A DNA stretch of 31,975 nucleotides from a virus. Position numbers and translations under genes: made by a program. A model generated the notes under the pieces. It was not told the origin of the DNA and searched no databases. It worked only from the letters and a program-made list of their open reading frames with translations. The stretch is taken from positions 1-31,975 of IMG/VR virus record IMGVR_UViG_3300042261_000055; one strand, given 5' to 3'. Below, piece after piece: positions 819-24,594 of this stretch (position 1 is its first letter; each line of letters begins with the position of its first letter).

Positions 819-893
819 GAGTCTCCTCCAATTCTTGGGAGTTAGGTTAATTCCATTAGTCCGAGAGTGTGACTCAATTCACTAAAATATCTA

Positions 894-920
894 TTGACTT
901 TATAAGTTGAGCGTAATAAT
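894..920 (+). promoter_or_regulatory. Candidate promoter of the rightward early operon
   Basis: TTGACT (894-899, 5/6 match to a sigma-70 -35 box) is followed after 15 bases by AATAAT (915-920, 5/6 match to a -10 box). The spacing is short; an alternative TAATCT with 17-base spacing has a poorer -10. The early operon's first ATG is at 968. Confidence 0.3.
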
Positions 921-967
921 CTTCCCTCATAACTTAATAATTAATCATTAGATGGGAGAATAAGAAT

Positions 968-1848: not shown

Positions 1849-1857
1849 TACTCACGT

Positions 1858-1921
1858 CCCCGCGCTAGTGGAGCATATTAGGGAGCGATACCCTAGCGGG
1901 GAGCGATAGGCAGACGCCTAT
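1858..1921 (+). repeat. Tandem hairpins between early genes
   Basis: CCCCGCGCTAG (1858-1868) is imperfectly complementary to CTAGCGGGG (1893-1901). A smaller stem, TAGGG/CCCTA (1879-1895), is nested within it. A second hairpin, ATAGGC-AGAC-GCCTAT (1906-1921), follows. No T tract follows, so these are more likely RNA stabilising, processing or attenuating structures than intrinsic terminators. Confidence 0.45.
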
Positions 1922-2619: not shown

Positions 2620-2685
2620 ATGGCGCAAGACAATTTACGATTTAATAAAGAAACATTTTTGAAAGCGTGCAAGGTTCAGCCTTAA
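2620..2685 (+). CDS. Very short ORF (21 aa), uncertain
   Basis: A good ribosome site (ACAGGAGAAGG) precedes the ATG, but the ORF has only 21 codons. Its stop is the TAA inside the CTTAAGAC motif at the head of the first structured RNA element. It may be a leader peptide whose translation reaches the RNA element, or chance. Confidence 0.3.
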   Translation: MAQDNLRFNKETFLKACKVQP

Positions 2686-2787
2686 GACAGAAGAAATAAA
2701 TGTGACGCAAGTCACAGCCTCAAATCCTTTACAGAGGGCGCGTGTTCGTGGCACGATTGAGGCACTAGGTAAGGAGAAGCCTTACCT
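2681..2787 (+). ncRNA. Structured RNA element, copy A
   Basis: CTTAAGACA is followed by hairpin H1, TGTGAC-GCAA-GTCACA (2701-2716). Next is a three-way junction: closing stem P2 GCCTCAA/TTGAGGC (2717-2723 with 2757-2763), P3 TCCT/AGGG with loop TTACAG (2725-2738), and P4 CGTGT/GCACG with loop TCGTG (2741-2755). A further hairpin AGGTAAGG/CCTTACCT (2767-2787) precedes the ATG at 2811. Copy B at 2968-3075 aligns without gaps across H1-P4. Of 20 differences, 14 form seven two-sided compensatory pair changes. A cis-regulatory leader (riboswitch-like or protein-binding) is the simplest role; a stable sRNA is an alternative. Confidence 0.65.
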
Positions 2788-2824
2788 TAAACAGACAGGA
2801 AGAAAAACAAATGGAAATCATTAG
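2702..2824 (+). CDS. Possible small ORF overlapping RNA element A (40 aa)
   Basis: GTG-started ORF encoding a basic protein (VTQVTASNPLQRARVRGT...). The reading frame runs through the whole RNA structure and overlaps the ATG at 2811. The equivalent frame in copy B is also open (29 codons) but the compensatory changes between copies are mostly non-synonymous, so selection appears to act on RNA pairing. I list it because the composition is protein-like; it may be non-coding. Confidence 0.3.
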   Translation: MTQVTASNPLQRARVRGTIEALGKEKPYLKQTGRKTNGNH

Positions 2825-2972
2825 AGAACTATCAGTAGACAAGTGGGGAATTTGGATTGATACATATTTCTTTGACTTCTATCTACACACCCGCACCATC
2901 ATCACCGCGCTACTAATTGGCGCAATCTTAAGAACCCGCAAAGTTATCAAAGACAAGAAGCGCAAGTCTTAA
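2811..2972 (+). CDS. Small membrane protein between the two RNA elements (53 aa)
   Basis: MEIIRELSVDKWGIWIDTYF leads into a hydrophobic segment ending TIITALLIGAIL and a highly basic tail (RTRKVIKDKKRKS), a positive-inside pattern for a single-pass membrane protein. AGGAAG lies upstream of the ATG. Its stop codon is the TAA of the CTTAAGAC motif that opens RNA element B. It is flanked by both RNA copies and is the first gene downstream of copy A, so it is a likely regulatory target. Function unknown. Confidence 0.6.
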   Translation: MEIIRELSVDKWGIWIDTYFFDFYLHTRTIITALLIGAILRTRKVIKDKKRKS

Positions 2973-3075
2973 GACACAACTTAATATGTGAGGCAACTCA
3001 CACCCCCGAACACTTCACAGAGTGCGACTATTCACGATAGTATCGGGGCACAAGGGAAAGCAAGGCGCAGACCCT
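2968..3075 (+). ncRNA. Structured RNA element, copy B
   Basis: CTTAAGACA, then H1 TGTGAG-GCAA-CTCACA (2987-3002), P2 CCCCGA/TCGGGG (3004-3009 with 3043-3048), P3 CACT/AGTG with loop TCACAG (3011-3024) and P4 ACTAT/ATAGT with loop TCACG (3027-3041). Junction bases A, CG and A match copy A. A weak AGGG/CCCT stem (3053-3075) follows. The ribosome site AAGGAGG of the next gene sits 8-14 bases upstream of its ATG, largely in the loop of a possible CCGC/GCGG hairpin. This suggests control of 3098-3421. No known RNA family was recognised. Confidence 0.65.
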
Positions 3076-3097: not shown

Positions 3098-3421
3098 ATG
3101 GAAACAGAATACAACGGCTGGACAAACCGCGAAACGTGGTGCACTAATCTATGGATAGATAATGAGTTCGGTCTATATGAGCAAGTCCAACAAATGGCAA
3201 AAGAAGAAATCGCAGGACACGACAAGGGCGAAGAGATTAACCCTCACTACTTAGGCGAGCAGATTAAAGAAATGTTTGAAGAGTTGTTCGACTTTGAAAG
3301 CATAGTTTCTAATCGTGAATTACTTGTTATGATGAACGACATCGGCTCTTTATATCGTGTGAACTGGAAAGAAATCGCAGGAAATATCTTAGACGAAAAC
3401 AAGTTGCAGGAGGCGAACTAA
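3098..3421 (+). CDS. Phage protein of the NGWTNxETW type (107 aa)
   Basis: Starts with YNGWTNRETWCTNLWIDNE, a signature recalled from a widespread family of small phage and bacterial proteins of unknown function (possibly the one called DUF7249; not verified). The rest is acidic and helical. A perfect AAGGAGG lies eight bases before the ATG and directly follows RNA element B. It is TAATG-coupled to the next gene. The role is unknown. Confidence 0.75.
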   Translation: METEYNGWTNRETWCTNLWIDNEFGLYEQVQQMAKEEIAGHDKGEEINPHYLGEQIKEMFEELFDFESIVSNRELLVMMNDIGSLYRVNWKEIAGNILDENKLQEAN

Positions 3422-3612: not shown

Positions 3613-3635
3613 GGACTTAAGACAGGAGAAAACTA

Positions 3636-4565: not shown

Positions 4566-4855
4566 AAGTAAGACGCGTAGTTGAAATGCTTTACCAAACC
4601 TATGACCCTGAGCAGGAGATTATGGCGGTATGGATTGGGTCAGAGGGATTTGAAACTAAAGCAGGGGTATGGCAACGAGCAGTAGAACTATTTGAAAAAG
4701 ATAATTATATAGATAATGATTTCATTGACGCAGTTCGCAACCTAGTATGGGACGCAGACGCAGAGATAGAACAAGAAGAGAGCGAGAAGTTACACGCTAG
4801 TCTAGCAATAGATAGTTACTTGGAGCGAGTGCGAGAGGAGCAAGCAAATGTGTGA
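4562..4855 (+). CDS. Hypothetical protein (97 aa)
   Basis: N-terminal pattern (VVEMLYQTYDPEQEIMAVWI) resembles the start of small phage proteins that describe ratios or fractions in low-complexity sense only; no reliable family. The C-terminus is an acidic helix. Linked by ATGA upstream and an eight-base overlap downstream. Confidence 0.6.
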   Translation: MKVRRVVEMLYQTYDPEQEIMAVWIGSEGFETKAGVWQRAVELFEKDNYIDNDFIDAVRNLVWDADAEIEQEESEKLHASLAIDSYLERVREEQANV

Positions 4856-5574: not shown

Positions 5575-5999
5575 TGCAAGAACGAAAGCCAATGGTGGTT
5601 GCGTTTATCGTAGCCTTGATATGGGTATGGGCTACGCCCGTGATAGAAGAACCGACAAAGATTATTCCTATTAAGATACCGATAATTAAAGCAAGAACCA
5701 AAGCAACAATGGCAGAAAAGAAAGCCAATAAGGAAATGGCTAAAGATTTTGCTTGGGCTGGCTATGGTTGGCGTGGACAACATTGGACTTGTATTGAAAA
5801 ACTATTTACTGCCGAGAGTAGGTTTGACCACTTAGCAAACAACCCTAAGTCTACTGCGTATGGTATCGGTCAGGTCTTAAATGAAACCTCAAGCGACCCT
5901 GCAATACAGATATTAAAAGCGTATCAGTATATTAACTTTCGTTATAGTGGGTCTCCCTGTAAAGCGTGGGTCTTCCATCTTAAGACAGGACATTACTGA
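5574..5999 (+). CDS. Membrane-anchored lytic transglycosylase-like protein (141 aa)
   Basis: Residues 7-21 (MVVAFIVALIWVWAT) form a signal anchor. A linker rich in Lys and Ile leads to a compact SLT/lysozyme-like domain: YGWRGQHWTCIEKLFTAESR, N-x-x-S-x-AYGIGQ, then a D-x-x-IQ...YI..RY segment and C-x-AW. E81 in AESR is the candidate catalytic glutamate. Such proteins cleave the glycan chain of peptidoglycan. It lies far from the lysis genes (13.4-14.3 kb) and on the opposite strand in an early-type operon, so a role other than final lysis, such as local wall remodelling, is possible. Confidence 0.8.
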   Translation: MQERKPMVVAFIVALIWVWATPVIEEPTKIIPIKIPIIKARTKATMAEKKANKEMAKDFAWAGYGWRGQHWTCIEKLFTAESRFDHLANNPKSTAYGIGQVLNETSSDPAIQILKAYQYINFRYSGSPCKAWVFHLKTGHY

Positions 6000-24282: not shown

Positions 24283-24594
24283 TTACATTCCTATCTCTTT
24301 CATAGTATCTGCTACTCGTTGGTCTATTTTTTGAGCGGCTGGCATAGTGTCAGCATCATATGGTTTATTTAGTTTTTCAGAGGCTTCCCGTGCAGCATTA
24401 ATATGTCGCCAAGTTGTTCCTGCTGGTTGGATACCTTCAGCCCTTGCAGCCCGATATGCAGCCAATTCTCCATCCCATTTTTTTTGGGCAATTGGTTTTC
24501 TGGCATCTCCAGGTGATAGTTCTAGAGTACCAATCTTGCAACCAAAACAACCCTCTACATATTCTGGATGTTTCTGTATTTGATGTAGGCTCAT
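24283..24594 (-). CDS. Conserved actinobacteriophage structural-region protein (103 aa)
   Basis: HPEYVEGCFGCKIGTLELSP with CxxC, then RAEGIQPAGTTWRHINAARE, recalls a protein found in Actinobacteria phages and some other aquatic phages. The N-terminal CFGC could bind metal. ATGA overlap with the upstream gene. Function unknown. Confidence 0.65.
   Translation of the reverse strand: MSLHQIQKHPEYVEGCFGCKIGTLELSPGDARKPIAQKKWDGELAAYRAARAEGIQPAGTTWRHINAAREASEKLNKPYDADTMPAAQKIDQRVADTMKEIGM

Follow-up and report, generated by a model that had tools for sequence, protein, structure and literature searches.

The RNA elements reported here constitute a previously undescribed, strongly covarying family, found in phages whose hosts belong to a bacterial order that is among the most abundant in fresh water. 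Their common core is a three-way junction of the stems P2, P3 and P4. We infer that, in the phages of freshwater actinobacteria ('Ca. Nanopelagicales'), these cis-acting, tRNA-like junctions mark the borders between genes of the first operon, and favour, tentatively and as something short of probable, a role in the tRNA-like border processing of phage early mRNA. If this reading were true, tRNA punctuation would be extended to phage early mRNA. In some copies one and the same DNA stretch seems to mark the gene border in two ways, as a fold and as a promoter. Since the element recurs several times per genome and two of its carriers are in culture (the phages E7 and F5, on 'Ca. Planktophila' LanE-43) these proposals are testable now, and the element would help in recognizing the early operons, and perhaps the hosts, of uncultured actinophages.

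Window copies and their features

The window, i.e. the whole stretch of DNA analysed, is an entire IMG/VR record of 31,975 bases. It encodes a WhiB-like protein, a sigma-like factor and a phage major capsid protein, and therefore belongs to an actinophage. Two copies of the element (Table 1) had been pointed out in an initial annotation, and recomputation reproduces the comparison made there: a gapless alignment of positions 2701-2765 with 2987-3051 has 45 of 65 identities. Fourteen of the 20 differing bases make up seven pairs altered on both sides (one in the hairpin H1, two in P2, one in P3 and three in P4); of the others, two turn G-T pairs into Watson-Crick pairs, one abolishes a closing pair (2717-2763, the outer pair of P2, which is C-C in copy 2) and three lie in loops. 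The fold drawn for them is likewise recovered: each copy folds on its own into H1 followed by the three-way junction, with z scores of -2.9 and -4.0. A third, diverged copy begins 9 nt past a stop codon at 1848 and has a P5-like hairpin at 1906-1921.

Table 1. Features of the element copies and their surroundings in the window
Feature	Position	Strand	Description
Operon start	868-922	+	CRP-type site TGTGACTCAATTCACT, 10 nt, TTGACT, 17 nt, TAATCT
Third, diverged copy	1854-1908	+	without H1; P2 1858-1863/1896-1901; P4 loop AGCGATA
Copy 1 H1	2701-2716	+	TGTGAC-GCAA-GTCACA; hairpin and CRP/GlxR-type palindrome (TGTGA-N6-TCACA)
Copy 1 three-way junction	2717-2763	+	P2 2717-2723/2757-2763; P3 2725-2738; P4 2741-2755
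Copy 1 junction joints	A2724, CG2739-2740, A2756	+	
Copy 1 -35-like hexamer	2728-2733	+	TTTACA; P3 tip, 11 nt past H1
Copy 1 -10-like hexamer	2752-2757	+	CACGAT (nAnnnT); spacer 18
Copy 1 P5 hairpin	2767-2787	+	AGGTAAGG-AGAAG-CCTTACCT; begins 3 nt past P2
Gene after copy 1	2811-2972	+	53 aa, no family
Copy 2 H1	2987-3002	+	TGTGAG-GCAA-CTCACA
Copy 2 three-way junction	3003-3049	+	P2 3003-3009/3043-3049; P3 3011-3024; P4 3027-3041
Copy 2 -35-like hexamer	3014-3019	+	TTCACA; 11 nt past H1
Copy 2 -10-like hexamer	3038-3043	+	TAGTAT; spacer 18
Copy 2 P5 hairpin	3053-3075	+	AGGG...CCCT
SD in hairpin loop	3078-3092	+	CCGC-TAAGGAG-GCGG; after copy 2 P5
Gene after copy 2	3098-3421	+	DUF7249, PF23907

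The small genes behind the elements mostly belong to no family, the DUF7249 gene of the window alone being recognized. Relatives of the product of the gene after copy 1 are encoded behind elements of the contigs L187, L204, L223 and L225. The relative in L012 of the gene after copy 2 likewise has its Shine-Dalgarno (SD) site in a hairpin loop, CCGC-TCAAGGAGG-GCGG (near 4760-4775).

The sequence CTTAAGACA, with which each copy had been said to start, is instead the 3' end of the upstream ORF (2620-2685 and 2811-2972, respectively) and is mostly not kept before homologues; elsewhere it occurs within leaders before SD sites, and we do not count it as part of the element. As CTTAAGACA(GGAG) it lies repeatedly directly before or in ribosome sites (3616-3624 and 5979-5987 in the window, and in many contigs), as a start-associated sequence of its own.

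A covarying RNA family and its carriers

Homologues were collected in several steps of increasing reach. A first pattern, composed from loop and joint bases, matched 23 contigs, with true homologues, as judged by pairing, in three of these; a second sequence pattern raised the total of distinct ones to a dozen. The 12 homologues chosen in this way, by sequence pattern and not by pairing, have paired bases in 94.6% of cells and changes on both sides in 10 of the 22 pairs, and their covariation score is 0.347, as against 0.149 for shuffled alignments and at most 0.055 for slid structures. A covariance model built from this dozen (R1) retrieved further diverged copies without H1, on the same contigs and the same strand. 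With a descriptor of junction geometry we found 20 H1-less elements in 12 contigs, together with one further chance-looking match, and none in three shuffled windows; a pattern for the H1-less type matched 41 viral contigs, many of them with several elements.

A second model (R2) was made from 52 descriptor-chosen elements. In related phage contigs R2 has 99 matches at E values, themselves rough, of up to 0.001, from 51 sources and with 73 distinct sequences. Across these the covariation score is 0.530 (0.158 shuffled, at most 0.113 slid) with 210 double-change cells as against 60 in shuffled alignments, and a MAFFT alignment made without fitting to the model gives a like result. Since the pairing of the R2 elements is partly built in by the descriptor, the 12-homologue test is the less biased of the two. 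The descriptor also forbids A-C pairs, and a strand test by G-U versus A-C pairs is therefore not valid on this set. The third window copy scores 15 bits (E 0.13) with R1, in the training of which it had no part, and 22 bits with R2, which has it in its training set. Up to four elements were found on one contig; since the contigs are partial, copy numbers are minima, and the pattern searches reach only relatives that retain the chosen bases.

The alignments show that the family shares the P2/P3/P4 junction, with its stems kept by compensatory change. Conservation does not follow the overlapping ORF at 2702-2824; this ORF was rejected as the conserved unit in view of single-base length differences in P4 and in the joint between P3 and P4, combined with the covarying stems. 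In Rfam 15 no element was matched at gathering score, the only such matches being tRNA genes elsewhere in two contigs. The initial proposal of an undescribed structured phage leader RNA thus holds, on account of a large covarying family with no gathering-level Rfam match and no conserved reading frame; absent from it were the operator in H1 with its hexamers, the extent of the family, most of which is without H1, and the tRNA-like core.

There are two types of element. Type A, with 27 distinct members including both window copies, has H1 directly 5' of P2; type B, to which most of the family belongs, is without it. Relaxing the pattern by removing the H1 stem gave no new type A elements. Among the carriers are the cultured 'Ca. 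Planktophila' phages E7 and F5 (OX376640 and OX376641), the first phage isolates on 'Ca. Nanopelagicales' (PMC10202952), with three and two elements, respectively. Those of E7 are at 1381-1437, 1747-1797 and 2157-2211 on the minus strand, the last being of type B. Two GC-rich actinophage contigs (L214 and L218) have one element each, without P5. No convincing match was seen in the actinophages ChuckDuck, Schmidt, Appa and DismalFunk (the last in part only), and a sequence pattern search of host genome contigs gave 14 chance-looking matches. The Microbacterium phage Appa (L222) does contain, at 31935-31988, an intergenic T-arm (GCCGG-TTCGAGT-CCGGC) with a GCCCC/GGGGC stem that is not called as a tRNA; this stretch scores 13.6 bits with R2, which is chance level.

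Gene borders and likeness to tRNA

Members of the family lie at gene-gene junctions, usually 6-11 nt past a stop codon, and are confined to the first genes of the operon. Type B elements mostly begin 6-9 nt past the stop codon (27 of 36); in type A, the TGA within H1 often serves as stop codon (distance 11). The trinucleotide ACA precedes 44 of 57 elements, mostly in both types. Downstream of P2 the order is AC[GTA], the P5 hairpin, a GACAGGAG-like SD site and the start codon: P5 begins 2-4 nt past P2 in 45 of 56 cases (mean z -2.7), and start codons are mostly 40-57 nt past P2.

The proteins encoded downstream of 54 elements cluster into 31 unrelated groups. The element had been called riboswitch-like, and a junction-binding ligand or phage protein that regulates how the following gene is translated would fit the leader position before SD sites and the conserved P4 loop and joints. 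These 31 groups do not form one pathway, and a ligand-specific riboswitch is therefore unlikely; there are, moreover, several copies within one phage, and a conserved alternative pairing with the SD site was not seen. We regard a riboswitch or autoregulatory operator as very improbable and do not retain the term. Leader repeats before unrelated genes, limited to one actinophage group, are also known from the cluster K mycobacteriophages: their SAS and ESAS recur in the leaders of some unrelated genes, half of these sequences having inverted repeats; SAS is an invariant 13-bp GGGATAGGAGCCC located at the start codon and ESAS a 17-bp inverted repeat (PMC3203893). The present element, in contrast, is a covarying three-way junction placed 40-60 nt before the start, and GGGATAGGAGCCC was not found at the start codons of element leaders, which have GACAGGAG-type sites instead.

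The architecture of the junction resembles a tRNA that lacks its anticodon arm: an acceptor-like P2 of 7-8 bp is separated by one unpaired A from a T-arm-like P4, with P3 as a third arm. P3 is variable and the P4 stem short, with a G-C-closed loop that is mostly TTCRNGA. The lengths of P2 and P4 trade off, being 7+4 in 24 elements, 8+3 in 22, 7+3 in 10 and never 8+4 (Fisher p 3e-8, though the sequences are related). The distance on the 3' strand from the loop to the end of the stem is thereby held at 12 nt (46 of 57; 11 nt in 10), as it likewise is in tRNA. The first pair is G-C in 51 of 57 elements and the next base is A in 52, the 3' end reading AC[GTA]AG; A as against G at position 73 counts as evidence, while C74 was demanded by the descriptor and does not.

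The element is nevertheless tRNA-like and not a tRNA, because it has neither an anticodon arm, only 2-4 nt lying between P3 and P4, nor a CCA end, because its T-loop is not canonical and because RF00005 and ARAGORN found ordinary tRNA genes with no element among their matches. In a test of the 57 elements for the canonical T-loop TTCRANY, TTCR was common, but position 58 is A, C or T and position 60 is A. Reciprocally, R2 gave only two matches in 396 actinobacterial genomes, both of them tRNA-like: one tRNA-Arg and one fragment with an acceptor stem and a T-arm. The actinobacterial sequence L226 has, at about 1500, an acceptor stem and T-arm that ARAGORN does not call; it may be what is left of a tRNA, or another tRNA-like element. 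One tRNA gene recurs with an equal Rfam score (47.4 bits) in three phage records (L185 3087-3158, minus strand; L187 6618-6689; L199 record 24414-24485), and the L185 copy is tRNA-Arg(ACG) according to ARAGORN.

The nearest known counterparts are tRNA punctuation, as in mitochondria, which shares the 7-bp acceptor-like stem, the T-arm-like hairpin, the 12-nt ruler and the position at gene borders, and the tRNA-like mascRNA/menRNA of MALAT1/MEN-beta (RF01684), which likewise lie inside a long transcript. RNase P and RNase Z recognize the acceptor stem plus T-arm and cut tRNA-like elements such as the animal mascRNA, and RNase P also cleaves some bacterial mRNAs and phage RNAs (PMC4919922). When RF01684 was run on 18 phage records, most of the eight best matches were elements from end to end, several of type B, with a best score of 21.7 bits as against a cut-off of 42.5 and with matches in all control genomes too. 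Unlike mascRNA, the phage element is intercistronic and occurs in many copies per genome, and its processing is deduced here from sequence.

In the processing model that we prefer, the element within the polycistronic early RNA would be cut at its edges, most simply by host RNase P and/or RNase Z; the upstream message would then have its 3' end just beyond the stop codon, and P5 would open the downstream one. Given its position past the stop codon and ahead of P5, the element could separate messages by excision or by blocking exonucleases. A variant of the latter kind dispenses with the tRNA enzymes: the junction would insulate or protect by blocking 3'-5' exonucleases a short way beyond the stop codon or the 5'-3' RNase J arriving from upstream, or another nuclease would cut. 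The tight placement relative to stop codons, P5 opening the next leader and the restriction to the first genes of the operon would all suit such an element, which would have no need of a real T-loop, and a real one is not kept. The tRNA-like 12-nt ruler and the reciprocal matches of the tRNA and mascRNA models would, however, have to be coincidence, and for RNase III the helices are too short for the usual site; we hold this variant to be unlikely, if worth keeping in mind. In phage T7, RNase III sites between the early genes divide the polycistronic early message. These are likewise structured RNAs between early genes; their fold differs from that of the present element, a putative cleavage target.

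By analogy with HK022 put RNA, the nascent junction might instead bind RNA polymerase and permit terminator read-through. Such an RNA would be cis-acting and indifferent to the gene that follows, as is the element, and copies do occur early in operons headed by a CRP-type promoter. Stop codons and ribosome sites, however, and not the promoter, determine their placement, and there are several per operon, which makes this analogy improbable.

A putative promoter layer of type A elements

In type A elements a second, putative signal is superimposed on the fold. All 27 H1 sequences fit TGTGA-N6-TCACA, the GlxR motif (PMC7999487); in most of them the P3 tip, exactly 11 nt past H1, reads TTTACA, TTGACA or TTCACA, and 26 of the 27 have nAnnnT at a spacer of 17 or 18. 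Type B elements, which lack H1, generally also lack the -35 hexamer. Judged by these consensus matches, type A seems to combine a CRP/GlxR-type operator with a -35/-10 promoter. Actinobacterial CRP/GlxR-dependent promoters resemble it in the palindrome and in -35 and -10 hexamers at helical phase; unlike them, it has its -35 in an RNA hairpin tip and its -10 in P4/P2 of a covarying RNA. The type is thus unusual in that promoter and RNA fold would constrain the same 60 bases.

A similar layout recurs at stand-alone promoters: many early operons open with TGTGA-N6-TCACA, 10/11, 21 or 31 nt, TTGA[CG], about 17 nt and nAnnnT. The spacings from operator to hexamer keep to the helical phase expected of CRP/GlxR-type activation, and the layout suggests that the early operons may use a host regulator of the cAMP type. 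This recurrence, together with the fit of the 27 H1 sequences to the operator with hexamers at fixed spacing, could mean that type A is in essence a CRP/GlxR-dependent promoter acting as DNA, with the RNA fold as its by-product. Most members of the family, however, retain the same covarying fold without H1 or the -35 hexamer, and N1 and N6 of the palindrome centre pair in 26 of 27 H1 sequences as against 5 of 21 stand-alone sites. The promoter is therefore an addition to the fold and not a substitute for it, which leaves a promoter on its own quite improbable; the extra pairing fits a double use of H1, as DNA site and as RNA hairpin.

Two other readings of H1 were set aside. Its GNRA loop is no proof of an RNA-only hairpin, as the GCAA/GTAA centre also occurs at stand-alone promoters and other H1 centres are GAAA, CAAA, TCAA or GGAA. 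Pairing of the H1 UGUGA with the UYACA of the P3 loop explains the conservation less well than do the operator and the -35 hexamer.

Transcription is predicted to start close to where P2 ends, immediately ahead of P5, and at a stand-alone promoter of E7 the first leader begins with a P5-like hairpin and GACAGGAG. The P2/P5 border thus looks like a site where the 5' ends of messages may form: in type A the operator and the -35/-10 hexamers would initiate near the same point at which processing would cut, and the genes behind could gain their 5' end by either route. The fuller proposal, that the element is an anticodon-arm-less tRNA mimic used as punctuation and cut by the host tRNA-maturing enzymes, with some copies doubling as a CRP-dependent promoter of the same 5' end, appears to us possible if rather doubtful. 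Further operon-start sites of the CRP/GlxR type occur at L012 4200, L037 2597 and L225 2491 (minus strand).
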